Below, one piece after another: positions 1 through 13,331 of a stretch of 40,617 nt of DNA. The stretch covers positions 1 to 40,617 of the forward strand of contig DATKAO010000055.1 in NCBI GenBank assembly GCA_035498015.1, read 5' to 3'. The number at the start of each line of letters is the position of its first letter. Within the stretch, counting starts at the first letter, position 1. The notes beneath the pieces are model-generated. The model was not told where the DNA came from and did not search any database. It was given only the letters and a program-made list of their open reading frames with translations. This DNA is from Myxococcota bacterium. Its GTDB lineage: Bacteria > Myxococcota_A > UBA9160 > SZUA-336. The position numbers were made by a program, and so were the translations under genes.

Positions 1-561
1 GTGGTCGATCATGGCGTCGGTCTGGATGAAGTCGTTGAGCAGCTGCTCGGTGCGCAGGTCGCGGCCCTTGGCAGACACGATGCCCAGTGACACCGAGCCC
101 TCGAGGCCGTACGGGTTGCCGATCGCGATCACCCACTCGCCCACCTGCAGCTTGTCGGAGTCACCGATCGTGACCGCGCGGAACGGCTTCTCGCCGTCGT
201 GCGGCGAGATGCGCAGCACCGCGACGTCGGTCTGCTTGTCGGTGCCGACGATCTCGGCCTCGTAGCGGCCGTCGCGACCGGGCACGATCACGCTCACCTT
301 CTCGGCGCGGTCCACGACGTGCCAGTTGGTGAGCAGCACGCCGGCCGGGTCGATCAGGAAGCCGGAGCCCTCCTGCAGGTTGCGCCGGCCGTTCACGCGC
401 ACCGCAGCCTCGATGTGCACCACGCAGGGCGAGACCGTCCGGTTGATCTCGATGATGCGCGCCTGCAGCTCGTCGAGCGCGTCCTTGGCCAGCGCGCTCG
501 GCAGCGCGGCGCATCCGGCGGATACGAACACCAGACTCACGAGCGCGGCGCGCAGCTTCAT
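1..561 (-). CDS. HtrA/DegP-like trypsin-type serine protease, lipoprotein (3' end cut by window)
   Basis: The first 187 codons of a secreted protease run off the left edge. Residues 1-17 form a lipoprotein signal ending VSAGC, so Cys17 would be lipidated. The trypsin-like fold follows: TNWHVVD carries the catalytic His (H81) and TDVAVLRI the Asp (D112). FIQTDAMIDH at the edge sits where HtrA proteins have FIQTDAAINPGNSGG, so the catalytic Ser and any PDZ domain lie outside the window. The ATG overlaps the stop of the thiazole-tautomerase-like gene as ATGA, so it is translated with the thi genes, an unusual partner for an envelope protease. Family assignment is firm. Its role in periplasmic quality control is inferred from the family. 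Confidence 0.88.
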   Translation of the reverse strand, partial: MKLRAALVSLVFVSAGCAALPSALAKDALDELQARIIEINRTVSPCVVHIEAAVRVNGRRNLQEGSGFLIDPAGVLLTNWHVVDRAEKVSVIVPGRDGRYEAEIVGTDKQTDVAVLRISPHDGEKPFRAVTIGDSDKLQVGEWVIAIGNPYGLEGSVSLGIVSAKGRDLRTEQLLNDFIQTDAMIDH

Positions 562-1184
562 GCTCCTGCCTCATCGGCCAATGCGCGCCGGAACTCGCGC
601 GCGGCGGCCTCCGGGTCGGGGGCTGCGCCCAGGGCCGCGATCGCCACCACGCCCGCGGCGCCCGCGCGCCGCAGCTCGGGCACGCGCGCCGCCGTCACGC
701 CGCCCAGGGCGAGCACGGGCACGGCGAGCCCGGCCGCGGCCTCGCGCAGCCAGGCACAGCCGCGCGGCGCGGCACTCGGCTTGGAGCCGGTCGCGAAGAT
801 CGGCGAGAGAGTGACGTAGGTCGCACCCTGCGCGGCCGCCTGCTCGGCCTCGGCGCGCGAGTGCGCCGAGTAGCCGATCCACGCCGCCGCGCCGAGAAAC
901 GCGCGCGCCTCGGCCACCGGCACGGACTCGGCGCCCAGGTGCACGCCGTCCAGACCGAGCGCGCGAACCAGGTCGAGCCGCCGGCCGGCCAGCAGGCGCA
1001 GGCCCGCGGCGCGCGCCTTCGCCAGCCGCGCGACACACTCACTCCACTGGCCGACAGACCAGTCCCGTTCTCGCAGCACGACGAATTCGACGCCGCCGCG
1101 CGCCAGGCGTTCGATCACGTCGCACGGGTCGCGGCCCGCGCAGCCGCGCACACCGTCGGTCCAGTAGCCCAGCCGCGGGATCAA
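558..1184 (-). CDS. tenI: ThiE/TenI superfamily protein, probably thiazole tautomerase (TenI type)
   Basis: A 208-residue TIM barrel of the ThiE/TenI family. The TTG start overlaps the thiG stop (TTGA); longer in-frame starts would lie inside thiG. Visible motifs are [25 protein letters not shown] (H108), [10 protein letters not shown] and LALGGVTA. True ThiE enzymes carry an Asn-Asp pair before the GVHLG strand and an Asp shortly after it, which bind Mg and pyrophosphate. Here these positions read LAGRRLDL and AES, so the metal-binding Asp residues appear missing. B. subtilis TenI also lacks them and keeps the His of SVHS. Position directly after thiS and thiG fits aromatisation of the ThiG product. 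A noncanonical ThiE remains possible. Confidence 0.8.
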
Positions 1185-1960
1185 GACAGGTCGGCGAGTC
1201 CCGTCTCGGGGCTCGACGCCTGCGCGTGCAGGCGCCTCGGCATGCGGCCGGCCTCGTAGGCGGCGCGGCCCGCTTCTACGGCGAGCTTCATGGCGTGGGC
1301 CATCTTCACCGGGTCCTTGGCGGCGGCGATCCCGGTGCTCATGAGCACGGCGGTGCAGCCGAGCTCCATGGCGATGGCGGCGTCGGAGGCCGTGCCCACG
1401 CCGGCGTCGACGATCACCGGGCACGAGACACTCTCCAGGATGATGCGGATGTTCGCGGGATTGCGGATCCCGAGCCCCGAGCCGATCGGCGCGCCCAGCG
1501 GCATGACCGCGGCGCAGCCGATCTCCTCCAGCCGCATGCAGGCGACCGGGTCGTCGGTGATGTAGGGCAACACGGTGAAGCCCTCCGCGACCAGGATGCG
1601 CGCCGCCTCGAGCGTGGCCGGCGTGTCCGGGAACAGCGTGCGCGAGTCACCGATCACCTCGAGCTTCACCATCCGGGTGTCGAGCAGCTCGCGCGCGAGC
1701 TGCGCCGTGGTCACTGCCTCCTTCACCGTGGTACACCCGGCGGTGTTGGGCAGGATGTGGAAGCGGTCCGGCGGGATGAAGTCGAGCAGCGAGCCCGCGT
1801 CGCGCCGGGTCAGGTCGATGCGGCGCACCGCGACCGTGGTCATCTCCGCGCCGCTGGCGTCGAGCGCCTTGCGGTTCTCCTCGAAGCTCTTGTACTTGCC
1901 GCTGCCCACGATCAGCCGCGAGCGCAGCTCGAGGCCGCCGAGCTTGTAAGTCGAGGTCAC
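1181..1960 (-). CDS. thiG: Thiazole synthase ThiG
   Basis: A 259-residue enzyme that builds the thiazole phosphate of thiamine from 1-deoxy-xylulose 5-phosphate, dehydroglycine and the sulfur carried on ThiS. The GTG start at 1960 overlaps the thiS stop (GTGA), and the protein opens [16 protein letters not shown], as ThiG proteins do. The Schiff-base lysine is K99 in [25 protein letters not shown] and the phosphate-binding [11 protein letters not shown] and GIAAAKDP segments are all present, and the length is normal. The dehydroglycine-forming partner (ThiH or ThiO) and ThiF are not in this window. Confidence 0.96.
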
Positions 1961-2160
1961 GCTCCGCCTCCGACGGCCTGGATCACCTCGACCTTGTCTC
2001 CGTCGCGCACCCACACCTCGGCGAAGCGCGAGCGCGGCACCACCTCGGAGTTGATCGCGACGGCCACGCGGCGCTGGGCGAGCTCGAAGTTCCGCAGCAG
2101 CTCGAGCACCGTCAACGGCGCGGGGGTCGAGTGAGATTCGCCGTTCAACACGTAGTTCAC
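1957..2160 (-). CDS. thiS: Sulfur carrier protein ThiS with C-terminal GGGA
   Basis: A 67-residue ubiquitin-like sulfur carrier. The GTG start gives [10 protein letters not shown], matching the usual ThiS N terminus; a longer reading frame continues upstream without typical ThiS sequence. The core ([29 protein letters not shown], then [15 protein letters not shown], positions 17-67) is typical. The expected ending is a free Gly-Gly, which is adenylated and thiocarboxylated. Here one Ala follows the glycines because the GCG codon precedes the TGA shared with thiG. The Ala would have to be removed, or the gene may end differently than it appears. Only about 40 bases separate this gene from alr, so there is no room for a THI-box riboswitch. 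Confidence 0.9.
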
Positions 2161-2200
2161 TCGCGGGACGTTAGCCGAAAGCTCCCCTAGATTGAAGCGT

Positions 2201-3331
2201 GTGGGGGAGGCCAGAGACAGCCGCGCGCAGACTCGCGCGTGGGCCGAGATCGACGTGGCGGCGCTCGCGCGCAACTACCGCGCGATCCGCGCCCGCGCGC
2301 AGGACAAGCGCGTGATCGCCGTGGTGAAGGCGAACGCGTACGGGCACGGGGCGGTGCCCGCGGCGCGGGCGCTCGCGGCGGCCGGCTGCGACGCGTTCGC
2401 GGTGATCAGCCTCGACGAGGCCGCCGAGCTGCGCGACGCCGGGCTGCGCGCGGCGCTGCTGGTGCTGGGCGGCGTGCAGGACGCCGACGAGGCGGCGCGC
2501 GCGCTCGCGCTCGACGTGGAGCCGGTGCTCTCCCGCGCCGAGCCGCTGGAATGGCTCGACGCGGCGGCCGCGCGCGCGGGCCAGGAGTGCCGCGTGCACC
2601 TCGAGCTCGACACCGGCATGGGCCGGCTCGGCGCCACGCCCGGCGAGCTCGATGCGCTGCTCGCGCGCGCCGTGCGCGCGCGGCGTGTGCGCGTGGTGGG
2701 CGTGATGAGTCACCTGGCGTGCGCCGACGACGCGGCCTCGCCCGAGACGGCGCGCCAGCGCGCGCTGTTCGCGGAGCTGGTGGGGCGGGTGCGCGCCGCG
2801 GGAGTCACTCCGCAGTGGCTGCACATCGACAACTCCGCGGGCATCGTGCGGGGCGCCGCCGAGGGCTGCAACGCGGTGCGGCCGGGCATCGCCCTCTACG
2901 GCGTCGACCCCACGCTCGAGGGCGGTCACCCCTTCGAGCCGGTGATGAGTCTGTGCGCGCGCGTGGTGCACGCCAAGAACGTGGCCGCGGGCACGCCGAT
3001 CGGCTACGCGGGCGCGTTTCGCGCCGTCGAGGCGACGCGCATCCTGACGCTGGCGGTCGGCTACGCCGACGGGCTGCCGCGCGCGGCGGGCGGCCGGGCG
3101 TCGGTCGCAGTGAGTGGCCGGCGCGCGCCGATCGTGGGCCGTGTCTCCTGCGACCTGGCGACCGTGGCCGTGCCGACCGCCGACCCCGCGGGCCCGGGCG
3201 ACGTGGCGCTGGTGTTCGGACGCCGCCGCGGCTTCGAGCTGCCGGTCGCCGAGCTGGCGAGCGCCGTGGGCACGATCTCGTACGAGGTGCTGGTGCGGAT
3301 CGGGCCGCGCGTGCCGCGCATTCCGACTTGA
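2201..3331 (+). CDS. alr: Alanine racemase
   Basis: A PLP enzyme of about 376 residues that makes D-alanine for peptidoglycan. The PLP lysine sits in AVVKANAYGHG (K43 from this start). The second catalytic base is the Tyr of VGYADGLPRA (about Y288). HLELDTGMGRLG and WLHIDNSAG are also typical. The start is uncertain: GTG at 2201 and TTG at 2192 are in frame and neither has a clear Shine-Dalgarno sequence. A leaderless message is possible, given a TAGATT sequence just upstream. It diverges from thiS and is followed after 32 bases by purD. Confidence 0.94.
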   Translation: MGEARDSRAQTRAWAEIDVAALARNYRAIRARAQDKRVIAVVKANAYGHGAVPAARALAAAGCDAFAVISLDEAAELRDAGLRAALLVLGGVQDADEAARALALDVEPVLSRAEPLEWLDAAAARAGQECRVHLELDTGMGRLGATPGELDALLARAVRARRVRVVGVMSHLACADDAASPETARQRALFAELVGRVRAAGVTPQWLHIDNSAGIVRGAAEGCNAVRPGIALYGVDPTLEGGHPFEPVMSLCARVVHAKNVAAGTPIGYAGAFRAVEATRILTLAVGYADGLPRAAGGRASVAVSGRRAPIVGRVSCDLATVAVPTADPAGPGDVALVFGRRRGFELPVAELASAVGTISYEVLVRIGPRVPRIPT

Positions 3332-3363
3332 CCGGGCGCGCCCCCGCGAGTAAATCGCCGCTC

Positions 3364-4635
3364 ATGCGAGTGTTGCTGTTGGGCTCGGGCGGCCGCGAGC
3401 ACGCGCTCGCCTGGGCGATCGCGAAGAGCCCCCTGGTCGACGAGCTGCTGGCCGCGCCCGGCAGCGCGGGCATCGCCCAGGAGGCGCGGGTGCTGCCCGT
3501 CGATCCGTGCGACGCGGGCGCCGTGCTCGAGCTCGTGAAGCGCGAAGGCGTCGACTTCGTGGTGATCGGGCCCGACGACCCGCTCGCCGCCGGAGTGAGT
3601 GACCGTCTGGCCGAGGCGGGCGTGGCGGTGTTCGGACCGAGCCGCGCCGCCGCGCAGCTGGAGTGGAGCAAGCGCTTCGCCAAGGAGTTCATGGCGCGCC
3701 ACGGCATTCCCACCGCGAGTCACGCGGCGTTCAGCTCGGCGGAGGCCGCCGAGGCGCACGTGCGCGCGCTGGGCGGACCCTGCGTGGTGAAGGTCGACGG
3801 CCTGGCGCTGGGCAAGGGCGTGAGCGTGTGCGACGGGCCGGAGCAGGCGCTCGCGGCCATCCGCGAGGCCATGCGCGAGCGGCGCTTCGGGGCGTCGGGC
3901 GAGACGGTGCTGATCGAGGAGCGTCTCACCGGCACCGAGGCGAGCCTGTTCGCGCTGTGCGACGGCGAGCGCTCGTTCGTGCTGGGCCACGCGCAGGACT
4001 ACAAGCGCGCGCTCGACGGCGACCGCGGTGAGAACACGGGCGGCATGGGCGCGATCTCGCCCGCGCCGGTGCTCGACGAGTCACTCGAGCGCGAGGTCGT
4101 GGAGCGCATCGTGCGGCCCACCTTCGCCGGCATGCGCGCCGAGGGCCGGCCGTTCCGCGGCATGCTGTTCGTGGGGCTCATGATCCAGAACGGGCGGCCG
4201 TACGTGATCGAGTACAACGCGCGCTTCGGCGACCCGGAGACACAGGTGCTGCTGATGCGGCTCGACTCCGACCTCGTGCCGCTGCTGGTCGGCGCGGCGG
4301 AGGGCCGGCTGCCGGAAGCGGGTGCAGCGCCGCGCCTGGCCGACGCCGCGGTGTGCGTGGTCGTGGCGAGCGGCGGCTACCCGCGCGAGTACGCCAAGGG
4401 CCGGCGCATCGAGGGCCTCGAGTCACTGTCCGGCCTGGCGGGCGTGAAGGCGTTCCACGCCGGCACGCGCCGCAGCGCCGACGGCGGCTGGGAGACCGCC
4501 GGCGGGCGGGTCGTGGGAGTCACTGCGCGCGGGCGCGACCTCGCGGACGCGCGCGCCCGCGCCTACGACGCCGTGCGCCGGGTCCGCTTCGAGGGCGCGT
4601 TCAGCCGCAGCGACGTCGCGCAGCCGCGCGGGTGA
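3364..4635 (+). CDS. purD: Phosphoribosylamine-glycine ligase (GAR synthetase)
   Basis: A 423-residue ATP-grasp ligase for the second step of purine synthesis, joining phosphoribosylamine and glycine. It opens MRVLLLGSGGREHALAWA, the nucleotide-binding N domain. The ATP-grasp core follows: VVKVDGLALGKGV, TGTEASLFAL, GENTGGMGAISPAP and IEYNARFGDPE with its metal ligands. The C domain ends in SGGYPREYAKGRRI and FHAGTR. Length is normal and no residue looks lost. The stop overlaps the next start as GTGA, so the downstream tsaC-like gene is translationally coupled. Confidence 0.97.
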   Translation: MRVLLLGSGGREHALAWAIAKSPLVDELLAAPGSAGIAQEARVLPVDPCDAGAVLELVKREGVDFVVIGPDDPLAAGVSDRLAEAGVAVFGPSRAAAQLEWSKRFAKEFMARHGIPTASHAAFSSAEAAEAHVRALGGPCVVKVDGLALGKGVSVCDGPEQALAAIREAMRERRFGASGETVLIEERLTGTEASLFALCDGERSFVLGHAQDYKRALDGDRGENTGGMGAISPAPVLDESLEREVVERIVRPTFAGMRAEGRPFRGMLFVGLMIQNGRPYVIEYNARFGDPETQVLLMRLDSDLVPLLVGAAEGRLPEAGAAPRLADAAVCVVVASGGYPREYAKGRRIEGLESLSGLAGVKAFHAGTRRSADGGWETAGGRVVGVTARGRDLADARARAYDAVRRVRFEGAFSRSDVAQPRG

Positions 4636-5228
4636 TCGTCGCTCTGGAACAGGCCGTCGCGCGGCTCGCGCGCGGAGAGCTGGTGGCCTACCCGACCGAG
4701 ACGGTCTACGCGCTGGGCGCCGACGCCTTCGCGCCGCACGCGCTCGAGTCACTCCTGGCCGCGAAGGGGCGCGCGGCGGACCGCGGCCTGTCGGTTCTGG
4801 TGCGCGACGCGGCAGCGCTGGCCGAGCACGCCCGCCCGCTGCCGGCCGCGGCGGCGCGGCTGGCCGCGCGCTTCTGGCCCGGGCCGCTCACGATCGTGGT
4901 GGCGGTTTCCGACCCGCGTTTCGCCGCGGTCGCGACCGAGCTCGGCGTCGGCTTCCGCTGCTCACCACAGCCCAGCGCCGCCGCCCTCGCGCGCGCCGCG
5001 CCGGCGCCCGTGGTGTCGACCAGCTGCAACCGAACGGGCGAGCCCCCGTGCACGAGCGGCGCCGAGGTGGAGGCGTGCTTCGGGCCCGACCTGGCGGTGC
5101 TGGGCGGCGAGCCGGCCACCGGCCTCGCGCCGTCGACGGTGGTCGCGGTCGCGGCCGATGGCGCGCTCCGGCTGCTGCGCGCCGGGGCGCTCGACTTCGC
5201 TCGCGTGCAGGAGGCCGTCCTCCGATAG
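4632..5228 (+). CDS. tsaC: L-threonylcarbamoyladenylate synthase, Sua5/YciO/YrdC family
   Basis: A 198-residue YrdC-domain protein, predicted to form threonylcarbamoyl-AMP for the t6A modification of ANN-reading tRNAs. The family landmarks are YPTETVYALGADA (20-32), the K-x-R nucleotide site in AAKGRAADRG (K45, R47) and the STSCNRTGE loop (129-137), where STSANxSG is usual. FWPGPLTIVV is also standard. It is a TsaC-length protein without the extra Sua5 domain. The GTG start overlaps the purD stop. The YciO subfamily is an alternative, but the intact KxR and ST/N motifs favour the synthase. Confidence 0.88.
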   Translation: MIVALEQAVARLARGELVAYPTETVYALGADAFAPHALESLLAAKGRAADRGLSVLVRDAAALAEHARPLPAAAARLAARFWPGPLTIVVAVSDPRFAAVATELGVGFRCSPQPSAAALARAAPAPVVSTSCNRTGEPPCTSGAEVEACFGPDLAVLGGEPATGLAPSTVVAVAADGALRLLRAGALDFARVQEAVLR

Positions 5229-5234
5229 ACAGGC

Positions 5235-5897
5235 ATGAGGCTGCGGATCGGCGGGCGGGTCGAGCGCACGACCTGCGAGGGCCCGGGGGCGCGGTTCGCC
5301 CTGTGGGTCCAGGGCTGCCGCATCCGCTGCGCCGGCTGCTGCAACCCGCAGCTGTTCGCGGCCCGCGGCGGCCAGCGAGTCACGACCGACGCCCTGGCCG
5401 AGCGCCTGCGCGCGCTGGCAGGCGAGCTCGAGGGAGTCACCTTCCTCGGCGGCGAGCCGTTCGACCAGGCCGAGCCGCTGGCGGAGCTGGCGCGCGCGGC
5501 GCAGTCACTCGGGCTGTCGGTGATGGTCTTCAGCGGCTACGCGCTCGAGGAGCTCCGAACGCGGCCAGAAGCCCGCGCGCTGCTCGCCGCCACCGACCTG
5601 CTCGTCGACGGGCCGTACGACCGCACCCGTCCCGAGACGCAGCGGCGCTGGGTCGGGTCGACGAACCAGCGCTTTCACTTCCTGACGGCCCGATATCGGT
5701 CAGGAATCGAGTGTGTCGTCGTTCGTGAGGTAGGAGTCGAGATCGCGCCCGACGGGACGGTGCGCTTGCACGGCTGGCCGGAGCTTCTCGGCGCTTCGCG
5801 GGGCCGGGCATCTGCCCTTCCTCGCGGGTCCCTTCTCGTCGAAGACTCCTGCGAAACCCACTCGTCAGGGCAGATGCCCGGCCCCGCTCGCGAATGA
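5235..5897 (+). CDS. 4Fe-4S single-cluster / NrdG-like radical SAM activating protein
   Basis: A 220-residue protein. CX3CX2C at C28, C32 and C35 (QGCRIRCAGCCNP) would hold a SAM-binding 4Fe-4S cluster. VTFLGGEPFDQ and VMVFSGYALEEL match the activases of anaerobic ribonucleotide reductase and related glycyl-radical enzymes. No reductase gene is near, so the substrate is unknown. The start is the ATG six bases after the previous stop. The last 30 or so residues (from about 189) do not look like the family. They are encoded across a 21-bp perfect inverted repeat, so the C terminus may be an acquired tail. Confidence 0.8.
   Translation: MRLRIGGRVERTTCEGPGARFALWVQGCRIRCAGCCNPQLFAARGGQRVTTDALAERLRALAGELEGVTFLGGEPFDQAEPLAELARAAQSLGLSVMVFSGYALEELRTRPEARALLAATDLLVDGPYDRTRPETQRRWVGSTNQRFHFLTARYRSGIECVVVREVGVEIAPDGTVRLHGWPELLGASRGRASALPRGSLLVEDSCETHSSGQMPGPARE
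5798..5887. repeat. Perfect 21-bp inverted repeat with 48-base loop at the 3' end of the radical-SAM-like gene
   Basis: The arms at 5798-5818 and 5867-5887 are exact reverse complements. The core of the left arm is GGGGCCGGGCATCTGCCC. A smaller CTTC/GAAG hairpin lies in the loop. The element sits across the last codons of the upstream gene and before a 169-base convergent gap. It is followed by a pyrimidine run (CTTTCTCCCCTTTTTT, about 5903-5918). It could work as a bidirectional terminator or be a small REP/MITE-like element; the sequence alone does not decide. Confidence 0.8.
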
Positions 5898-6066
5898 GGG
5901 ACTCTTTCTCCCCTTTTTTCCGGACGCGGCGAGCATCTGGCTGACTCATTCTGGTCGCCCGCGTTCGGTGCGGCTGCTGGCTCGGGCCGCATGCTGCTCG
6001 CGCCTGATCGATCTGCCTGCGCGGACGATGAGTTGGAGTCGGATCGATCGTCGACGTGGACTGCAC

Positions 6067-6273
6067 TTAGCCCGGAGCGCGGCGCGTGGAGGCGCTCTTG
6101 ACCTCTGCCTTCCCGTAGAACTCGCTCGTCTTCTCTCTCGAGCGCACGCTGCCCAGGGCTCTTTCGAGTGACTCGGTTTCGTGGAGGCAGGTTTCGCCTT
6201 TCAGGCCCTTGGTCTCGATGTGGACGGTGCCGTCGGGGTCGATCTGGATTTCGAGCTCTACCTTGGTCGCCAC
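6067..6273 (-). CDS. DUF2997 family small protein
   Basis: A 68-residue protein. It starts at GTG one base after the stop of the Ycf35-like gene, giving VATKVELEIQIDPDGTVHIE and then TKGLKGETCLHETESLERALG. The IDPDGTV segment, the KGxxGxxC motif and the LExxLG segment are the marks of DUF2997, a short family of unknown biochemistry. Family knowledge: these genes are found beside Ycf35/DUF1257 genes, notably in cyanobacteria. The C terminus is basic and unstructured in appearance. It is the last gene of the four-gene minus-strand set. Confidence 0.78.
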   Translation of the reverse strand: MATKVELEIQIDPDGTVHIETKGLKGETCLHETESLERALGSVRSREKTSEFYGKAEVKSASTRRAPG

Positions 6274-6274
6274 G

Positions 6275-6652
6275 TCAGGCTCCCCAGCGCGTGGCCACGA
6301 GGCGCACGGTGCCGTCGGGGGCTCGGCTCTCCTGGCCGAGGTCGTAGCCCTTGCGGCGCAGCTCGTCGGTGACTCGCGCGTAGGCGTAGCGCTGGGCGAT
6401 GCGCTGCGCGAAGGCCTGGGCCTTCGAGCCGCAGCCTTCGGAGACCAGCACCGCTTGCTGGGTCCTGGGGTCGATGCGCACGCCGACCTCGGTTCCGTCC
6501 ACGTCGGTCGCCACGCGGTCGACCGTGTGGCTGCGGCCGTCCCGGGTCCTGAGCTGCCGGCACTCTCGCAAGGTCGCGCCCAGCGACGCGATCGCGTCGG
6601 CCAGAAACTCGACGCTGGCCAGCACCAGGCTGATCTCGAGTGACTGCGACAT
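6275..6652 (-). CDS. Ycf35-like / DUF1257 family protein
   Basis: A 125-residue protein, MSQSLEISLVLASVEFLADA at the N terminus. The segments RTRDGRSHTVDRVATDVDG, a VGVRID strand, FAQRIAQRYAYARVTDELRRKGYD and a terminal GTVRLVATRW agree with DUF1257, the family of plastid Ycf35. No enzymatic motif is visible. The ATG lies five bases after the stop of the zinc-ribbon gene, and its own stop is one base before DUF2997, so the genes are surely co-transcribed. Its function is unknown in any organism to my knowledge. Confidence 0.78.
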   Translation of the reverse strand: MSQSLEISLVLASVEFLADAIASLGATLRECRQLRTRDGRSHTVDRVATDVDGTEVGVRIDPRTQQAVLVSEGCGSKAQAFAQRIAQRYAYARVTDELRRKGYDLGQESRAPDGTVRLVATRWGA

Positions 6653-6656
6653 CGGC

Positions 6657-7304
6657 TCACCACCACCAGCGGCGGTAGCGGCCGTAGCGCCCGTAGCCGT
6701 AGTAGCCGCCCACATAGCTGCCGCCGCCGAGCAGGATCCCGACCAGGATCAAGAGGCCGTAGCGGCCCGGGCTGCTGATGCCGTACAGCACGAGCGCGCC
6801 GACTCCGCCGATGATCGCGAGCTGCAGCACGAGCCGGATCCACGGGTCGGAGACCTGGCCCGTGGCGCGCCACAGCCAGGCGACGGGCACGTTGCTCTGG
6901 CCCGAGTCGACGTCCGAGGTCGGCGCCGACTTCTGCTCGAGCTGTGCCTTGTGCCGGGCGAGCTCGCGCTCGGCGTAGGCTTCGGCCTCGCGGCGGCGCG
7001 CCTCGCGCTGAGCGCTGGCGCGGCGCTGCTCGGCCGCGAAGCGCGCCTTCTCCTCGACGCGGTGCGCGCGCACCTCGGGCGTGTCGAGCTCGGCGCCGCA
7101 GTTGAAGCAGGCGGCGGCGCGCACCGGGTTCTCACCGCCGCACTTGGGGCAGCGCACCGGAGCGGCGTCCGACGCGTCGGGCGGCATGTCCGGCTGGCCG
7201 AAGCGCTCGGCGACACCGTCCGGTGTCGGCTCGGGCTCGGCTTCGCCCTCGCGCTCGGGCCGGGGCCGCTCGAGGTTGCGGAAGCGGTCGAAGGGTCCGG
7301 GCAT
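6657..7304 (-). CDS. Zinc-ribbon protein with two membrane helices and an aromatic tail
   Basis: A 215-residue protein of no recognised named family. An acidic, proline-rich N terminus leads to a four-cysteine ribbon (CPKC at 52-55, CFNC at 66-69). A charged helix rich in Arg, Glu and Ala follows (about 78-125), probably a coiled coil. Two hydrophobic segments (about 158-176 and 182-202) should form a hairpin in the membrane. The protein ends in a Gly/Tyr/Arg-rich tail closing with three tryptophans (RRWWW). It lies three bases after the Ycf46-like ATPase and five before the Ycf35-like gene. By position it could anchor the ATPase to the membrane, which is inference. Confidence 0.85.
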   Translation of the reverse strand: MPGPFDRFRNLERPRPEREGEAEPEPTPDGVAERFGQPDMPPDASDAAPVRCPKCGGENPVRAAACFNCGAELDTPEVRAHRVEEKARFAAEQRRASAQREARRREAEAYAERELARHKAQLEQKSAPTSDVDSGQSNVPVAWLWRATGQVSDPWIRLVLQLAIIGGVGALVLYGISSPGRYGLLILVGILLGGGSYVGGYYGYGRYGRYRRWWW

Positions 7305-7307
7305 GAC

Positions 7308-8882
7308 TCAGCCGAAGCGCGACGCGAGCGGCGCGGGCCGCTCGCCCGGGCCGGCCGCAGAGGCGGCGCGCGTGCGCGTGCGCGCCCACTCGCGCAGGCG
7401 GTCGATGTCTTCCTTCATGGTCACGGCCAGCGGCAGGGTCTCGCCGATCGCGTCCATCAAGTGACTCTGCTGCAGGTCGACGCCGTCCGAGTAGGCGGTG
7501 AACAACGCCGCCACGATCGCCTGCTCGATCTCGGCCCCGCTGAAGCTCGCGGCGGTCTTGGCCAGCGCGGCCAGGTCGAAGGCCTTCGGGTCGCGCTTGT
7601 AGCGCGCGAGCTGGATCGCGAAGATCTGGCGCCGCTCGGAGTCACTCGGCAGGTCGATGAAGAAGATCTCGTCGAAGCGGCCCTTGCGCAGGAGCTCCGG
7701 CGGCAGCGCGTCGATCTTGTTCGCGGTCGCGACCACGAACACGGGCGCGGTCTTCTCCTGCAGCCAGGTCAGGAAGCAGCCGAACACGCGCGCGGAGACA
7801 CCGCTGTCGCCGTTCGCGGAGCCGCCCAGTCCGGCCAGCCCCTTCTCGAGCTCGTCGACCCACAGCACCGCAGGCGCGACGCCTTCGGCCACGCGCGTGG
7901 CGCGGCGCATGTTCTCTTCCGACGACCCGACCAGGCCGCTGAAGATCCGGCCCATGTCGAGGCGCAGGAGGGGCAGCTGCCAGGTCGCCGCGATCGCCTT
8001 CGCGGTCAGGCTCTTGCCGCAGCCCTGGACGCCCAAGAGCAAGAGACCCTTGGGCGCGGGCAGCCCGAAGGCGCGCGCCTTGTCGCCGAAGGCGTTCGCG
8101 CGCCGGCCGAGCCAGGTCTTCAGGTTCTCGAGCCCGCCCACGGTGGCGAGACTCTCGTCGGAGCCGCAGAACTCGAGCAGCCCGCTCTTGCGGATCACCT
8201 GGCGCTTCTCGGCCAGGATCACCGACACGTCGTCGGGCGCGAGTCTCTGGTCCTGGGCGATCGCCTTGGCGAAGGCGTTCTCGGCCTCCGACAGCGTGAG
8301 TCCCAGCGCCGCCTTGAGCAGCGGCTCGACCGTCTCCGAAGTGAGCTCGACGGTGGCGCGCTTGCCTTCGCGCACCACGCGCACGATGTCGCGCAAGAGC
8401 ACGCCCAGGTCGTGAGTCGACGGCAGCGGCACGTCGAGCACGCACACGTCCTTCTCGAGCTCGGTCGGGATGTTCACGACCGGAGACACGAGGATCAGCG
8501 TGGTGTAGGAGCTCTTGAGCTGCTGCGCGAGCTCGCGCAGCGCGCGCACGACCGTGGGGTCGTTGAGATACGGGTGAAAGTCCTTGAACACCACCAGGCT
8601 CGGGTCGGTGAGCTGGCCGACCGCGGTCAGCGCCTCGGTCGGGTCCTTCGGACCATCGGACATGCCGCCCGTGCCCGCGCGCGGGTCACGGCGGCGCAGG
8701 CCCTGGGTGATCGACCAGGTCACGAGTGTCTTGCCGTGGGTCTCGGCGAGCTTCGCCAGCACGTCGTCGAGCCGCTGCTCCTCCCAGGTCGAGAGGTAGA
8801 GCAGCGGGTAGCGGGCGCGCACGTGCAGGTCGAGCTCTTCGACGAACCCGGCGAGGGGCGAGTGACTCGGCTTCGCGCTCAT
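7308..8882 (-). CDS. Ycf46-like AAA+ ATPase
   Basis: A 524-residue ATPase. Residues 1-230 form an extra N-terminal domain ([26 protein letters not shown]) typical of Ycf46 proteins. The AAA core follows: Walker A GVQGCGKS (284-291), Walker [10 protein letters not shown] (339-347), sensor-1 VATANK (384-389) and [14 protein letters not shown] with the arginine finger region. The active site therefore looks intact. In cyanobacteria Ycf46 has been linked to photosynthesis and inorganic-carbon regulation, but this window has no photosynthesis gene. It heads a set with a zinc-ribbon membrane protein, Ycf35-like and DUF2997. The GTG/ATG choice is settled by the ATG at 8882 and the family-like N terminus. 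Confidence 0.88.
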
Positions 8883-8945
8883 CCGAGCCCGGGTCGGCGG
8901 CCGGCGCGCACGGCTTGAGCCTTGCCTGCCGGCGCCGGCCGATAA

Positions 8946-8960
8946 TAGAATCAGGTTCTA
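8946..8960. promoter_or_regulatory. Palindromic operator candidate upstream of the TetR regulator
   Basis: TAGAA-TCAGG-TTCTA is a perfect 5-bp-arm palindrome. It overlaps a GATAAT -10-like box (8941-8946) and is followed by a tandem TTCTAGT repeat (8956-8969). Placement 22 bases before the TetR start is the usual arrangement for autorepression. The arms resemble TAGAA/TTCTA half sites of KstR-type TetR operators, though the spacing differs. The -35 is unclear (TTGCCT at 8922 gives a short 15-base spacer). Confidence 0.5.
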
Positions 8961-8981
8961 GTTCTAGTTGGTGCGGTGACC

Positions 8982-9635
8982 ATGGCCAACTCATTGAAAT
9001 TGCTGAGCTCCATCTCGCCGACCAAGCAGGCGCGCAGCGAGGAGACGGCCCGGCGCATCCTCGATGCCGCCCAGGCCACGATCGAGCGCGAGGGCCTGGC
9101 GAGCCTGTCGATCCCCGAGGTGGTGCGCCGCGCGCGCTCCTCGACCGGCAGCTTCTACGCGCGCTTCAAGGACAAGAACGCGCTGCTCGCGGCGCTGGAG
9201 GAGCGCTTTTTCGCCGACATGCACCGCGTGCTCGACGAGCTGGCCGACCCCGCGCGCTGGAGCGGCCGGCCCACGCGCGAGCTGATCGAGGCCTGCAACC
9301 GCGAGATGCTGCGCCGGCTGCGCCAGCACGCCCGCCTGGTGTGCGCGTTCGTGTTCCGCTCCGCGCACCAGGCGAGCCTCGCCACGCGCGTGCAGCGCTT
9401 CCACGAGCGACTCACCGACCGCATGCGCGCGCTGTTCCTGGCGCGCCGCGCCGAGATGACCCACCCCGAGCCCGAGCTCGCGGTCGCGCTCGCGCTCGAG
9501 TTCGCGTTCGCGTTCATCCAGGCGCGCGTCCTGTTCGCCGCGCAGGAAGGCGCGGTGGCCGCGCTCGACGACGACCGGCTCGCGGCGGAGCTCACCCGCA
9601 TGTTCCTCGCCTACGCGGGCATCGCGCCCGAGTGA
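8982..9635 (+). CDS. TetR/AcrR-family transcriptional regulator
   Basis: A 217-residue repressor. The N-terminal helix-turn-helix runs about 21-67 (RRILDAAQATIEREG, LSIPEVVRRARSSTGSFYARF). The C-terminal ligand domain has no specific signature. ATG at 8982 is chosen; a GTG six bases upstream is also in frame. A palindrome just upstream suggests autoregulation. The stop lies 20 bases before the P450 start, so it probably controls that gene in one transcript. The ligand cannot be read from the sequence. Confidence 0.93.
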   Translation: MANSLKLLSSISPTKQARSEETARRILDAAQATIEREGLASLSIPEVVRRARSSTGSFYARFKDKNALLAALEERFFADMHRVLDELADPARWSGRPTRELIEACNREMLRRLRQHARLVCAFVFRSAHQASLATRVQRFHERLTDRMRALFLARRAEMTHPEPELAVALALEFAFAFIQARVLFAAQEGAVAALDDDRLAAELTRMFLAYAGIAPE

Positions 9636-9655
9636 CTCGCGAGCAGGAGAGACCG

Positions 9656-10867
9656 ATGGAGCAGCCCAAGCGCCCCGCCGTGTTCGGCATCGCCGACGAC
9701 GCGTTCCGCGCGAACCCGTACCCCGTGCTCAACATGCTGCGCGAGGCGCAGCCGCTGGTGAAGACTCCGCTGGGACTGTGGGGCCTGGCGCGCTACGACG
9801 ACGTGGGGCGGCTCCTGCGCGACGTGCGCTGCGGCATGCGCAAGCGCGACGGCACGCCCTTCGTGATTCCCGACGTCGGCCCGGGCGAGCGCTTCGACCC
9901 CAACGCGTTCATGCTCTTGCAGGACGGCGCGCCGCACACGCGGCTGCGCAAGCTCGTCGCGAAGGCGTTCACCCCGCGCATGGTCGAGCGGCTGCGGCCC
10001 GAGGTGCAGGCGGTGTGCGACGCGTGCGTCGAGCGCGTGCTCGCCAAGGGCACGCTCGACGTGGCCGAGGACGTGGCGCGCATCGTGCCCTCGACGGTGA
10101 TCTGTCTCATGCTCGGCGTGCCGCTCGCCGACCGGCCGCGCTTCACCGAGTGGACCGCGAACGCGACGCACGCGCTGGTGGTGCAGTTCGCGCCCACCGA
10201 GGCCATGGCGCGCGCGCGGCCCGCGCTGGAGAAGCTGGTCGAGTATTTCGAGGCCATGATCGAGGCGCGGCGCAAGAACCTGGGCGAGGACCTGGTCTCG
10301 GAGCTGATCCGCGCCGAGGAGGACGGCGACCGACTCACCAGCGCCGAGCTGCTCGTGCAGTCGGTCGGGCTGCTCGCCGCCGGCTTCGAGACCACGATCG
10401 GGCTGATCAGCCTGGGCATGCGCCAGCTCCTGCTCCATCCCGACCAGCTCGCGAAGCTGCGCGCCGATCCCGGCCTGATCGGGAGCGCCGTCGAGGAGTG
10501 TCTGCGCTTCGACCCGCCGATCCTCGCCACGCTGCGGGTGCTCCACGAAGACGTGGAGTGGCACGGCCAGACACTCCCGGCAGACACACCGATCCTGGCC
10601 ATGCTGGGCGCCGCGAACCGCGACCCGCGCGCCTTCGAAGACCCCGAGCGCTTCGACATCGCGCGCCGCGGCGCGCCGCACTGGGGCTTCGGCGGTGGCG
10701 CGCACTTCTGCCTGGGCGCGCACCTCGCCCGGCTCGAGACCCAGGCCGCGATCGGCACGCTGGTGCGCCGGCTGCCGAGCCTTTCGCTCGGCGACGAGCC
10801 GCTGAAGTGGAGTGACTCGCTGTTCCGCGTCCCGGCTTCTCTGCCAGTGCGCTTCGAGGCCCCCTAG
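9656..10867 (+). CDS. Cytochrome P450
   Basis: A 403-residue soluble bacterial P450. The heme loop FGGGAHFCLGAHLAR has the thiolate Cys352. The I-helix motif AGFETT (242-247) supplies the acid/Thr pair for O2 activation, although Glu replaces the more usual Asp. The ExxR pair is E281/R284 in EECLRF, and HTRLRKLVAKAFTP is the C-helix region. A Shine-Dalgarno-like CAGGAGA precedes the ATG. No ferredoxin or reductase is adjacent, so electrons must come from elsewhere. The substrate is unknown; pairing with a TetR gene suggests an inducible oxidation of a hydrophobic compound. Its stop shares CTAG with the convergent DUF721 gene. Confidence 0.95.
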   Translation: MEQPKRPAVFGIADDAFRANPYPVLNMLREAQPLVKTPLGLWGLARYDDVGRLLRDVRCGMRKRDGTPFVIPDVGPGERFDPNAFMLLQDGAPHTRLRKLVAKAFTPRMVERLRPEVQAVCDACVERVLAKGTLDVAEDVARIVPSTVICLMLGVPLADRPRFTEWTANATHALVVQFAPTEAMARARPALEKLVEYFEAMIEARRKNLGEDLVSELIRAEEDGDRLTSAELLVQSVGLLAAGFETTIGLISLGMRQLLLHPDQLAKLRADPGLIGSAVEECLRFDPPILATLRVLHEDVEWHGQTLPADTPILAMLGAANRDPRAFEDPERFDIARRGAPHWGFGGGAHFCLGAHLARLETQAAIGTLVRRLPSLSLGDEPLKWSDSLFRVPASLPVRFEAP

Positions 10868-11223
10868 AGCGGTCCGATCCGCAGCCGGAGCTGCGCGGGT
10901 GCCTGGTCGCCGAGCACGGCGCGCAGGCGCGCGAAGATGCGCGGCTTCTCGAGCTGGATGCGCTGCATCCAGGCCGAGTCGCGCACGCGCGCCTGGATCA
11001 CGCCGTTGCGCACCCCGTCGGGCCGGCAGTGCGCGCGGAGCTCGGGGCCGAGCGCCTCGTCCCAGGCCCGGATCACCGCCACCGCTCCGGCCGTCGCCCC
11101 CAGCCCGACCTCGTCGAGCAGCTTGGGCAGGAGCGACCCCAGGGACTCGGTCGAGCTGCGGCGCCGCCCCGGCGCGCTGCGCGGCGGGGTGGGATTCGCG
11201 TGGCGGGGCGGGCGCGTCTCCAC
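10864..11223 (-). CDS. DUF721 (DciA-like) domain protein
   Basis: A 119-residue protein from the GTG at 11223. A basic, proline-rich N terminus is followed by the DUF721 domain (LLPKLLDEVGLG, VIRAWDEALGPELRAHCRPD, VIQARVRDSAWMQRIQLEK). The family includes DciA, the helicase operator that loads DnaB in most bacteria, and other small members of unknown role. Longer in-frame starts would run through the divergent zinc-ribbon gene and are unlikely. The stop overlaps that of the P450 on the other strand by three bases, so there is no room for a terminator between them. Confidence 0.8.
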   Translation of the reverse strand: METRPPRHANPTPPRSAPGRRRSSTESLGSLLPKLLDEVGLGATAGAVAVIRAWDEALGPELRAHCRPDGVRNGVIQARVRDSAWMQRIQLEKPRIFARLRAVLGDQAPAQLRLRIGPL

Positions 11224-11261
11224 GGCCGCATCGTAACCGACGTGGTACGCTCCGCGCCGAA

Positions 11262-11456
11262 ATGCCGACCCGAAAACCCCAGTCCCTGCGCTGTGACTTC
11301 TGCGGCGCCGAGAGCGAGCGCGTGCGGCGGGTCGCGCTCGACCAGGGGTATGACCGGCTCGGCCAGCGCCACGTCGTCCGCTACGCGTGCGAGGACTGCT
11401 CGCGCCGTAAGGAGGAGTCGCGCACAAACGTTGACGCCAAGCGCGACCCCTTATAG
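11262..11456 (+). CDS. Small zinc-ribbon protein, unknown function
   Basis: A 64-residue basic protein, MPTRKPQSLRCDFCGAESER at the start, with a second pair CEDC about 30 residues on. CxxC-x(n)-CxxC is a zinc-ribbon layout. The C terminus is highly charged (SRRKEESRTNVDAKRD). It is not a ribosomal protein I recognise. It diverges from the DUF721 gene by 38 bases and precedes the rpsP operon, whose likely promoter overlaps its last codons. Confidence 0.7.
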   Translation: MPTRKPQSLRCDFCGAESERVRRVALDQGYDRLGQRHVVRYACEDCSRRKEESRTNVDAKRDPL

Positions 11457-11457
11457 C
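11431..11457 (+). promoter_or_regulatory. rpsP: Candidate sigma70-type promoter for the rpsP operon
   Basis: TTGACG (11431-11436) and TATAGC (11452-11457) lie 15 bases apart, slightly short of the usual spacing, and overlap the end of the small zinc-ribbon gene. They would give a leader of about 45 bases before rpsP. This is the only convincing -35/-10 pair I see before the operon. Confidence 0.4.
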
Positions 11458-11510
11458 TTCGCGCCCTCGCTCGCCGGGCCGTCAGAGCGCCCCGGCGGAA
11501 GGATCCCCAT

Positions 11511-11768
11511 ATGGTCAAAGTCCGCCTCTATCGCACCGGCGCGCGCGGCAAGCCGTCCTACCGCATCGTCGTGATGGACCAGCGCAAGAAGCGCCAGGGC
11601 CGGGTGCTCGAGCTGCTCGGCACCTACGAGCCACGCAGCTCCGGCGGCATCCAGTATTCCGAGGCGGCGCTCGCCAAGTGGATCGAGCGCGGGGCGCAGC
11701 TCTCCGACACCGTTCGCACGCTCGTCACGCGCCACAAGCGCGCGGCCGCGGCGTCGCCGAGCGCGTAG
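11511..11768 (+). CDS. rpsP: 30S ribosomal protein S16
   Basis: An 85-residue protein opening [20 protein letters not shown], followed by [18 protein letters not shown]-like sequence and a short Ala-rich tail. This is S16, which binds 16S rRNA early in 30S assembly. GGAAGGA lies upstream of the ATG. It leads the conserved rpsP-khpA-rimM-trmD-rplS cluster. Confidence 0.98.
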
Positions 11769-11775
11769 GGCCGCC

Positions 11776-12042
11776 ATGAAGGAGCTCGTCGAGTTCATCG
11801 CCAAGACGCTCGCCGACGAGCCGGGCCAGATCGAGGTCTACGCGGCCGACGACAAGGTCGTCGAGCTGCGGCTCGCTCCGGACGACGTGGGCAAGATCAT
11901 CGGCCGGCGAGGCAAGACCGCCAAGGCCATCCGCACGCTGCTCGCCGCGGCGGGCGGCGGCTGGGACGTCGACATCGCCGGTCACGGCGAAGACGAAGAA
12001 GACGAAGAGTTCGAGGACGACTACGAGGACGACCAGGAGTGA
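11776..12042 (+). CDS. khpA: KH-domain RNA-binding protein KhpA
   Basis: An 88-residue protein consisting of one KH domain. The GxxG loop is in [19 protein letters not shown]. It ends with a strongly acidic tail (about 74-88, mainly Glu and Asp), which is longer than in many KhpA proteins and would set the basic GxxG face against an acidic extension. KhpA binds RNA, in some bacteria with KhpB, and affects cell size and ribosomal processes. It starts seven bases after rpsP. Confidence 0.95.
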
Positions 12043-12045
12043 GAC

Positions 12046-12636
12046 GTGGCGTCGAGTCGAAGCGCGAACTCCACCGCAGCGCCGCAAGGCCGAGCGGTTC
12101 GAGACTGGGTCGAGCTCGGCCGGGTGCTGCGTTCCCACGGCCTCGACGGCTCGCTGCTCGTCGCGCTCCATAGCGACGACCCGACCAACCTGATCGCGGC
12201 GCGCGAGCTCCGGCTCGCGGGCGAGCCCGGCACGATCCCGTTCCGTGTGGTGCATGCGGAGTCTGCGGGCCAGGGCCCGGGGGGCCGTGCGCGCGTGCGC
12301 CTGGAGCTGGCGGGCCTCGAGAATCGCGAGCGCGCCCAGCTGTTCGCCGGCGCGGCGGTGCTGGTGGCCGAAGCCGGCCTGCAGCCGCTCCCCGAGGGCG
12401 AGTTCTACTGGCGCGACCTGCTCGGGCTGCGGGCGCTGGGCCGCGACGGCGCCGAGCTCGGTACTCTGGTCGAGATCGTGCCGACCGCGGGCGCCGACGT
12501 GTTCGTGCTCCGCCGGCCGAGCGGCCCGGACCTGCTCTTGCCCGCGACCGACGCGCTCATCCTGAAGGTCGACCGCGAGCGCAGCGAGCTCTGGCTCGAT
12601 CCGCCTGCCGAGCTCCTGGCGGAGGGCGGGCGATGA
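12046..12636 (+). CDS. rimM: Ribosome maturation factor RimM
   Basis: A 196-residue protein from the GTG three bases after khpA. The N-terminal domain contains VELGRVLRSHGLDGSLLVAL, the RimM form of GxxGxxG. The C-terminal PRC barrel contains FYWRDLLGL and DLLLPATDALILKVD. RimM assists assembly of the 30S head together with S19. About 18 N-terminal residues rich in Ser and Ala precede the conserved start. The stop overlaps trmD (ATGA). Confidence 0.96.
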   Translation: MASSRSANSTAAPQGRAVRDWVELGRVLRSHGLDGSLLVALHSDDPTNLIAARELRLAGEPGTIPFRVVHAESAGQGPGGRARVRLELAGLENRERAQLFAGAAVLVAEAGLQPLPEGEFYWRDLLGLRALGRDGAELGTLVEIVPTAGADVFVLRRPSGPDLLLPATDALILKVDRERSELWLDPPAELLAEGGR

Positions 12637-13331
12637 GCGCCGGGCCGCGCATCGACATCGTCACCATCTTCCCGGAGCTCGTGGAGCACTTCCTCTCGGG
12701 CTCGCTGCTGGGTGCGGCGCGCCAGGAGGGCCTGCTCGACGTGCGGGTCACCGACCTGCGCGACTTCACCCTGGACCGGCACCACAGCGTGGACGACACG
12801 CCCTACGGCGGCGGCGACGGCATGGTCCTGCGCCCGGAGCCCGTGGTGGCGGCGGTCGAGGCGCTGGCCGGGCCCGCTGCCCGCGTCTTCGCGCTCTGCC
12901 CGCGCGGCCGGCGCTTCGACCAGACGCTCGCGCGCGAGCTCGCCGGCGCGCCGCAGATCGTCCTCCTGGCCGGGCGCTACGCCGGCTTCGACGAGCGAAT
13001 CTTCGCCCTGACGGGTGCGGAGCCGCTCTCGATCGGAGACTATGTGCTGGCGGGGGGTGAGGCCGCGGCCTTGGTCGTGACGGAAGCCGTGACCCGTCTG
13101 GTTCCGGGGGTGTTGGGGAATCCGGTCTCGGCCGAGGCGGATTCGTTCTCGGCGTGCGCGCTGGAGCACCCGTTGTTCACCCGGCCGCGGGAGTTCCGCG
13201 GCCTGGCCGTCCCCGAAGTCTTGTTGTCGGGCAATCACGCCGAGATCGCGCGCTGGCGCGCGCGCGAAGGCGAGCGAGTCACTCGCGAGCGGCGGCCCGA
13301 TCTTCTCGTGTCGAATGGAGCCAAGCGATGA
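12633..13331 (+). CDS. trmD: tRNA (guanine-37-N1)-methyltransferase TrmD
   Basis: A 232-residue SPOUT methyltransferase making m1G37, which prevents +1 frameshifting. The landmarks are [35 protein letters not shown], the knot segments [13 protein letters not shown] and [17 protein letters not shown], and [20 protein letters not shown]. The usual RYEG is RYAG here; the Asp-Glu-Arg that follows is kept. It is coupled by ATGA overlaps to rimM before it and rplS after it. Confidence 0.97.

Follow-up and report, generated by a model that had tools for sequence, protein, structure and literature searches.

A Ycf46-DUF1257-DUF2997 gene set with a putative membrane ribbon protein and an NrdG-like radical-SAM gene in an inserted block of a Myxococcota genome

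The locus and its inserted block

The window, that is, the whole stretch of 40,617 nucleotides analyzed here, contains on its minus strand, at positions 6067-8882, all four of the open reading frames claimed in an earlier note, encoding a Ycf46-type AAA+ ATPase, a ribbon/transmembrane (TM) protein, a DUF1257 protein, and a DUF2997 protein. Along this order, the intergenic gaps measure 3, 4, and 1 bases. The earlier note left out a conserved fifth gene (5235-5897, plus strand), encoding a radical-SAM (rSAM) protein, and did not identify the surrounding block as a recent insertion. The features are as follows.

5193-10866, no strand: inserted block of 5.67 kb that carries, besides the five genes, one TetR and one P450-like gene; absent at the same site in relatives
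5235-5897, plus strand: NrdG-like rSAM protein (Fer4_12, CxxxCxxC, GGEPF), convergent with the four genes
5791-6099, no strand: repeat dispersed in this genome, between the rSAM and DUF2997 genes, with inverted arms at 5798-5829 and 5856-5887
6067-6273, minus strand: DUF2997 protein (PF11211), 68 aa, GTG start
6275-6652, minus strand: DUF1257 protein (PF06868, Ycf35-like), 125 aa
6657-7304, minus strand: ribbon/TM protein, 215 aa, with a four-Cys ribbon, a charged helix, two hydrophobic segments, and an R/W-rich C-terminus
7308-8882, minus strand: Ycf46-type AAA+ ATPase, 524 aa
8976-9635, plus strand: TetR-type regulator in the block, divergent from the AAA gene; a candidate module member at most
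9659-10867, plus strand: cytochrome P450-like open reading frame in the block, its family judged from sequence; a candidate module member at most

In the same-genus genome G089, 44 bp occupy the site of the block, with window positions 1-5192 and 10867-12700 matching its neighboring stretches, and short gaps at this site are also found in G139, G255, and G290. The block is therefore most simply read as a gain in this lineage. Within the class, DUF2997 and the rSAM are each found in only 1 of 91 genomes, and in both cases the genome is this one. A second Ycf46 homologue, common to relatives and without other module parts beside it, is also present in the genome; its similarity to the Ycf46 of the block amounts to 406 bits, compared with 743 bits for the Anaeromyxobacter copy. 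The GC3 values of the five genes (0.83-0.95) are similar to those of most neighbors. Both the rSAM and DUF2997 reading frames end inside the dispersed repeat, into which the last ~34 rSAM codons extend, and the P450-like frame has many DNA matches (65-82%) elsewhere in this genome and in its relatives. Assembly contamination was considered for the contig and is disfavored, with the flanks being syntenic with, and 74-76% identical to, the same-genus genome.

The encoded proteins

Ycf46, Ycf35, and DUF2997 have long been orphan families in cyanobacteria and plastids, and to our knowledge functional data on them are scant. The Ycf46 of the block shows a full-length match to the Ycf46 type, and scores 89.8 bits against the Pfam AAA model (cut-off 21.2). 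Its AAA+ site had been called intact, and the AAA motifs are indeed present in the sequence: the CDC48-like C-terminal AAA domain has intact Walker A and B motifs, sensor, and arginine-finger region. The only P-loop lies in this domain, and comparison of the N- and C-terminal domains with each other gave a weak match (probability 52%); the N-terminal region is thus possibly a degenerate AAA domain. The nearest relatives are 63-67% identical, and a full-length match (E 1.8e-148) was obtained with the phage family phrog_8638, the function of which is not known.

The layout proposed earlier for the ribbon/TM protein is borne out by two CxxC pairs, hydrophobic segments at residues 158-176 and 182-200, and an RRWWW end. 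Matches to the Pfam zinc-ribbon models DZR, Zn_ribbon_3, and Zn_Ribbon_1 all fall below the cut-offs (18.8-21.8 versus 25-27.3 bits; for DZR, 21.8 versus 27.3 bits); with its four Cys residues, the protein carries a putative zinc ribbon that may bind metal.

HMM searches, named in the earlier note as a possible refutation of the DUF assignments, placed both of the small proteins above the Pfam gathering cut-offs (DUF1257, 39.4 versus 22.2 bits; DUF2997, 64.4 versus 24.1 bits). The DUF1257 protein is divergent, scoring 39 bits as against 64-96 bits for most copies in the phylum. Its predicted model has an alpha/beta fold (pLDDT 86), for which a fold search returned no significant relative in the PDB, the sole match below E 0.001 being an unnamed viral protein of 147 aa. 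The DUF2997 protein carries the invariant Cys of its family within a GxKGxxC motif; in an alignment of 28 members, G15, G26, and C29 are invariant. Of 37 copies on phage contigs, 35 have the Cys, and the two Cys-less ones are second copies in loci that also hold a copy with the Cys. The predicted DUF2997 model, which is poor (pLDDT 59), shows two strands followed by a helix that begins at the Cys.

The fifth protein belongs to the radical-SAM superfamily, with the CxxxCxxC motif, PF04055 and PF13353 matches above the cut-offs, and a Fer4_12 score of 113 bits; the CxxxCxxC triad is kept in 20 of the 21 rSAM copies listed, the exception being that at locus L114. The nearest named family is NrdG, and the best characterized relatives are NrdG and the pyruvate formate-lyase (PFL) activase. 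However, the score of 105.1 bits against the NrdG equivalog model TIGR02491 is below the cut-off of 126.1. A search of the genome, whose completeness is rated at 95%, found no NrdD (PF13597), and the single glycyl-radical enzyme of the genome is directly adjoined by its own CxxxCxxC activase-like protein. For these two reasons, a housekeeping activase role is improbable for the rSAM. A likeness between the C-terminal hairpin of the rSAM and the hairpin of DUF2997 (hhalign, 79% over 26 columns) is weak and was judged not significant.

Distribution of the gene set

Of the 379 genomes surveyed in the phylum, 80 have DUF1257, mostly in the arrangement Ycf46-DUF1257-DUF2997, with Ycf46 close upstream on the same strand in all 67 of the loci examined. 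The three-gene core is therefore widespread and not tied to photosynthesis. The earlier view of these families as unusual outside a photosynthetic context is not supported, as they occur in this phylum and also on plasmids and in phages, and the phylum survey rules out a phototroph-specific reading. Conservation in more than a single genome, raised earlier as a check, is also apparent: tens of genomes share the AAA-DUF1257-DUF2997 order, and seven loci, that of the window among them, pair the ribbon protein with AAA, so that the arrangement is not a coincidence. Among the 66 Ycf46 loci of the phylum that have both DUF genes, 60 contain neither type of rSAM and 6 contain a different one; since most Ycf46-DUF1257-DUF2997 operons lack it, the NrdG-like rSAM is an optional add-on. 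Separately, Verrucomicrobia, Planctomycetes, and this phylum have a set in which the rSAM is of another kind and is accompanied by TPR, ribbon/multi-TM, and PilT-like proteins.

The window's Ycf46, placed in a tree of 144 such proteins, groups with six copies from myxobacterial and deltaproteobacterial MAGs (support 0.999), and the ribbon/TM gene comes after Ycf46 in all seven clade members, including the window. One of them, locus L126 of an uncultured Anaeromyxobacter MAG, matches the window in all five genes, in their order, and in their orientations (Ycf46, ribbon, DUF1257, and DUF2997, with a convergent rSAM). The five others (L127-L131) have Ycf46 and then the ribbon gene, with no adjoining DUF genes; in one of these genomes, a Ycf46-DUF1257-DUF2997 operon occurs separately, and in another, a single rSAM gene stands alone at a different site. 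Features kept in the ribbon family are an N-terminal RF.RF..LE-like motif, the four Cys residues, and, in most long copies, the hydrophobic segments; the C-terminus is often Arg/Trp-rich (RYRRWWW, RRFRRW, RRRYWWGSRGWW). Neither the ribbon protein nor DUF1257 gave a match when searched against plasmids, and relatives of both were found solely via profile or neighborhood.

When named genomes were scanned using an alignment of Ycf46, 80 loci were obtained. The NrdG-like rSAM family adjoins Ycf46 on plasmids of Treponema, Paenarthrobacter, Rhodococcus, and Paenibacillus, and in contigs of Gordonia, Dactylosporangium, Spirochaetales, a Treponema MAG, Paenibacillus aquistagni, and Ruminococcus. Among 80 Ycf46 loci on phage contigs from IMG/VR, which are predicted and of which a few may be prophages or plasmids, both DUF genes are present in 32 and the rSAM in 13, in every case no more than 4 kb away and on the same strand. 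A Rhizobium phage has the arrangement AAA-x-DUF1257-DUF2997. At five loci (L111, L112, L123, L188, and L201), a protein with two to three TM segments and a helix-hairpin-helix (HhH) motif is encoded between DUF2997 and the rSAM. In such sets, the DUF1257 position is occupied by a distant member of that family whose N-terminus is hydrophobic (hhalign 97%, E 1.8e-10), and a membrane and HhH protein replaces the ribbon protein in other rSAM-bearing versions. A further plasmid system combines the NrdG-like rSAM family with a Clp-type AAA protein, a PIN-domain protein, and an AAA-domain protein; in one case, the genes lie near ArdA and an integrase.

Proposed role and relation to known systems

As judged from these gene neighborhoods, the AAA protein, the DUF1257 and DUF2997 proteins, a predicted membrane-hairpin protein, and the rSAM recur together in unrelated bacteria, on plasmids, and in phage contigs. 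The explanation that we favor, tentatively and at somewhat less than an even chance, is that the genes are a horizontally acquired copy of a mobile, membrane-tethered AAA remodeling module with an adaptor pair and a protein-modifying rSAM. The AAA protein would form a ring held at the membrane through the hairpin protein, with DUF1257 and DUF2997 acting as its adaptor pair. The invariant Cys of DUF2997 would be a functional site, whether for redox, for a ligand, or as an acceptor, and the rSAM would place a radical-based modification on a polypeptide presented by the AAA ring, or on DUF2997. The membrane-tethered AAA complex with two small partners suggested earlier fits these data, with the ribbon gene after Ycf46 in all seven clade loci, and the physical complex itself is a prediction. 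Consistent with the favored explanation are the five-gene match at L126, the rSAM-Ycf46 neighborhoods, the membrane and HhH proteins and remote DUF1257 proteins of the rSAM-bearing sets, the invariant Cys, the confinement of DUF2997 and the rSAM to the same genome of 91, the insertion with its empty site, the pairing with Clp-type AAA proteins, the lack of NrdD, and the glycyl-radical enzyme with its own activase. Against it, the rSAM of the window is convergent and outside the operon, five of the seven clade members have the Ycf46-ribbon pair without adjoining DUF genes, the rSAM is absent from most Ycf46-DUF1257-DUF2997 operons, the DUF1257 fold is without a convincing solved relative, and the DUF2997 model is poor. 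A broader claim is possible but doubtful, namely that of an undescribed class of mobile protein-modification machine, in which DUF1257 and DUF2997 would help an AAA+ ring to present a polypeptide to the rSAM at the membrane, and which would serve bacteria, plasmids, and large phages alike.

The Fe-S protein could instead gate a chaperone. In such a scheme, which we regard as unlikely, the rSAM here, like Fed7 in cyanobacteria, would sense redox state or iron and switch a quality-control AAA protein via the DUF2997 Cys, with no covalent modification. The invariance of this Cys fits, as do a Pseudanabaena plasmid on which DUF1257, DUF2997, and Ycf46 adjoin GrpE and Hsp70, the occurrence of ycf46 within a stress operon that reacts to iron, to sulfur, and to oxidative stress (PMC7496141), and the low-iron, thioredoxin/glutaredoxin, and DnaJ-like links of the cyanobacterial DUF2997-ycf35-fed7 cluster (PMC4284462). 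However, retention of CxxxCxxC in 20 of the 21 listed rSAM copies suggests catalysis, and spread on plasmids and phages less obviously suits a housekeeping chaperone. That same patchy distribution over plasmids, phages, and an inserted block would suit a role in conflict or defense, with the AAA/rSAM module directed at phages or competing mobile elements, or used by phages to counter their hosts; the plasmid genes that accompany the rSAM family, which are of the PIN-domain, AAA-domain, and Clp-type AAA kinds and in one case lie near ArdA and an integrase, point the same way, and an rSAM effector is among the components of published MoxR-vWA conflict systems (PMC7159879). We nevertheless consider this role rather unlikely, given that no PADLOC system was matched (the AAA hits being generic and IetA-like), that no toxin-like effector was recognized in the block, and that resident copies across the phylum and in cyanobacteria point to a physiological function.

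Two further accounts fare worse. The four genes might be a decaying import without a present role, as their lineage-specific insertion and the ends of DUF2997 and the rSAM within a dispersed repeat could suggest; five open frames, intact catalytic motifs, tight spacing, and a GC3 like that of most neighbors make this very unlikely. Least probable, to the point of being nearly discounted, is an ordinary NrdG or PFL activase beside an unrelated operon. The best characterized relatives of the rSAM are indeed such activases, but the sub-threshold TIGR02491 score, the failure to find NrdD in the genome, the separate activase adjoining its one glycyl-radical enzyme, and the repetition of the rSAM-Ycf46 neighborhood across phyla all argue otherwise.

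The families and the cyanobacterial cluster are already known; for the mobile set coupled to an rSAM and a membrane protein, no description was found in literature text searches, which took in few subscription journals. Under the favored module explanation, a portable unit with an rSAM and a membrane protein offers concrete partners to test for Ycf46, Ycf35, and DUF2997, in non-photosynthetic hosts, and points to rSAM chemistry coupled to AAA unfolding, a description of which was not found in the literature searched.

Among known systems, NrdG, the activase of anaerobic ribonucleotide reductase, resembles the rSAM in sequence family, CxxxCxxC motif, and length; the rSAM differs in its sub-cut-off score, the lack of NrdD in the genome, an extra C-terminal tail, and its AAA ATPase neighbor. 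The MoxR-vWA ternary conflict systems comprise an AAA+ ATPase and an optional rSAM effector (PMC7159879), and thus share with the window the combination of AAA+ ATPase and rSAM; unlike in those systems, the AAA protein of the window is of the CDC48/Ycf46 type, and none of the six block proteins scanned matched vWA or MoxR. As for IetAS, the NCBIfam IteA model scored 70.8 against a cut-off of 510, with hits to the AAA domain only, and no IetAS partner was matched among the other module proteins.

The Ycf46-DUF1257-DUF2997 operon of the phylum has the AAA-DUF1257-DUF2997 order on one strand, as in the window, but often has an FHA-domain coiled-coil protein upstream and no rSAM or ribbon protein. 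The actinobacterial and Paenibacillus plasmid sets, arranged as AAA-DUF1257-DUF2997-(membrane protein)-4Fe-4S single cluster protein, share with the window AAA, DUF1257, DUF2997, the same rSAM family, and, in most, a membrane protein. The rSAM is inside the operon in these plasmid sets, whereas in the window it is convergent and outside, and the membrane protein of the actinobacterial sets is of the HhH type and that of the window of the zinc-ribbon type. In cyanobacteria, DUF2997, ycf35, and fed7 form a cluster, with Fed7 being induced by low iron, having a role in a thioredoxin/glutaredoxin pathway, and binding a DnaJ-like protein (PMC4284462), and the Synechocystis operon slr0373-slr0374(ycf46)-slr0376 is a stress operon responsive to iron, sulfur, and oxidative stress (PMC7496141). 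These share with the window the same three families and an Fe-S protein that travels with DUF1257 and DUF2997; this protein is an rSAM (Fer4_12, PF04055) in the window rather than a Fed7-type ferredoxin. Furthermore, the cyanobacterial ycf46 has an operon apart from the cluster, whose partner is a ferredoxin, whereas in the window a single inserted block unites all of the genes with those for an rSAM and a membrane ribbon protein.

Repeats and other genes of the inserted block

The inserted block carries, besides the Ycf46-DUF1257-DUF2997 module, a regulator and a P450-like ORF, and a dispersed repeat lies where the module's convergent genes end:

window 5791-6099, dispersed repeat of the genome (inverted arms of 32 nt)
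window 8976-10867, TetR regulator and P450-like ORF

Further copies of the repeat were found on contigs C93 (81% identical), C41, and C98 of the same genome, and both the radical-SAM ORF and the DUF2997 ORF terminate within the window copy. Separately, the start of contig C93 is identical to window 1-133, a repeat at contig ends.

Ycf46 homologues with and without the partners

The same genome encodes a second Ycf46 homologue, common to the family of this organism, in whose neighbourhood DUF1257, DUF2997, the ribbon protein, and the radical-SAM gene were not found:

L286:5197-6666 (contig C16), second Ycf46 homologue

A second conserved set comprises a radical-SAM protein other than that of the window, Ycf46, DUF1257 (with a hydrophobic start), DUF2997, a TPR protein, a ribbon/multi-TM signal-peptidase-like protein, and a PilT-like ATPase; it occurs at loci L136, L140, L143, L144, L149, L154, and L155, and, within the phylum, at L051 and L054-L058. 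At 48 of the phylum's loci, an FHA-domain coiled-coil protein precedes Ycf46 on the same strand, about 2.7 kb upstream of DUF1257.

Phage and plasmid arrangements

In phage contigs L223 and L234-L236, Ycf46, a RecA-like protein, DUF2997, radical SAM, and DUF1257 form a single run. The window's radical-SAM family also occurs in a plasmid system (L117-L121; Moellerella, Polaromonas, Leisingera, Acinetobacter, and Photobacterium) together with a large AAA-domain protein, a PIN-domain protein, an unknown protein, and a Clp-type AAA protein, sometimes with ArdA or an integrase close by. On a Pseudanabaena plasmid (L116:1577-7521), GrpE, Hsp70, DUF1257, an AAA_21 ATPase, a small unknown protein, DUF2997, and Ycf46 stand in a row, an arrangement suggesting a link to chaperones.
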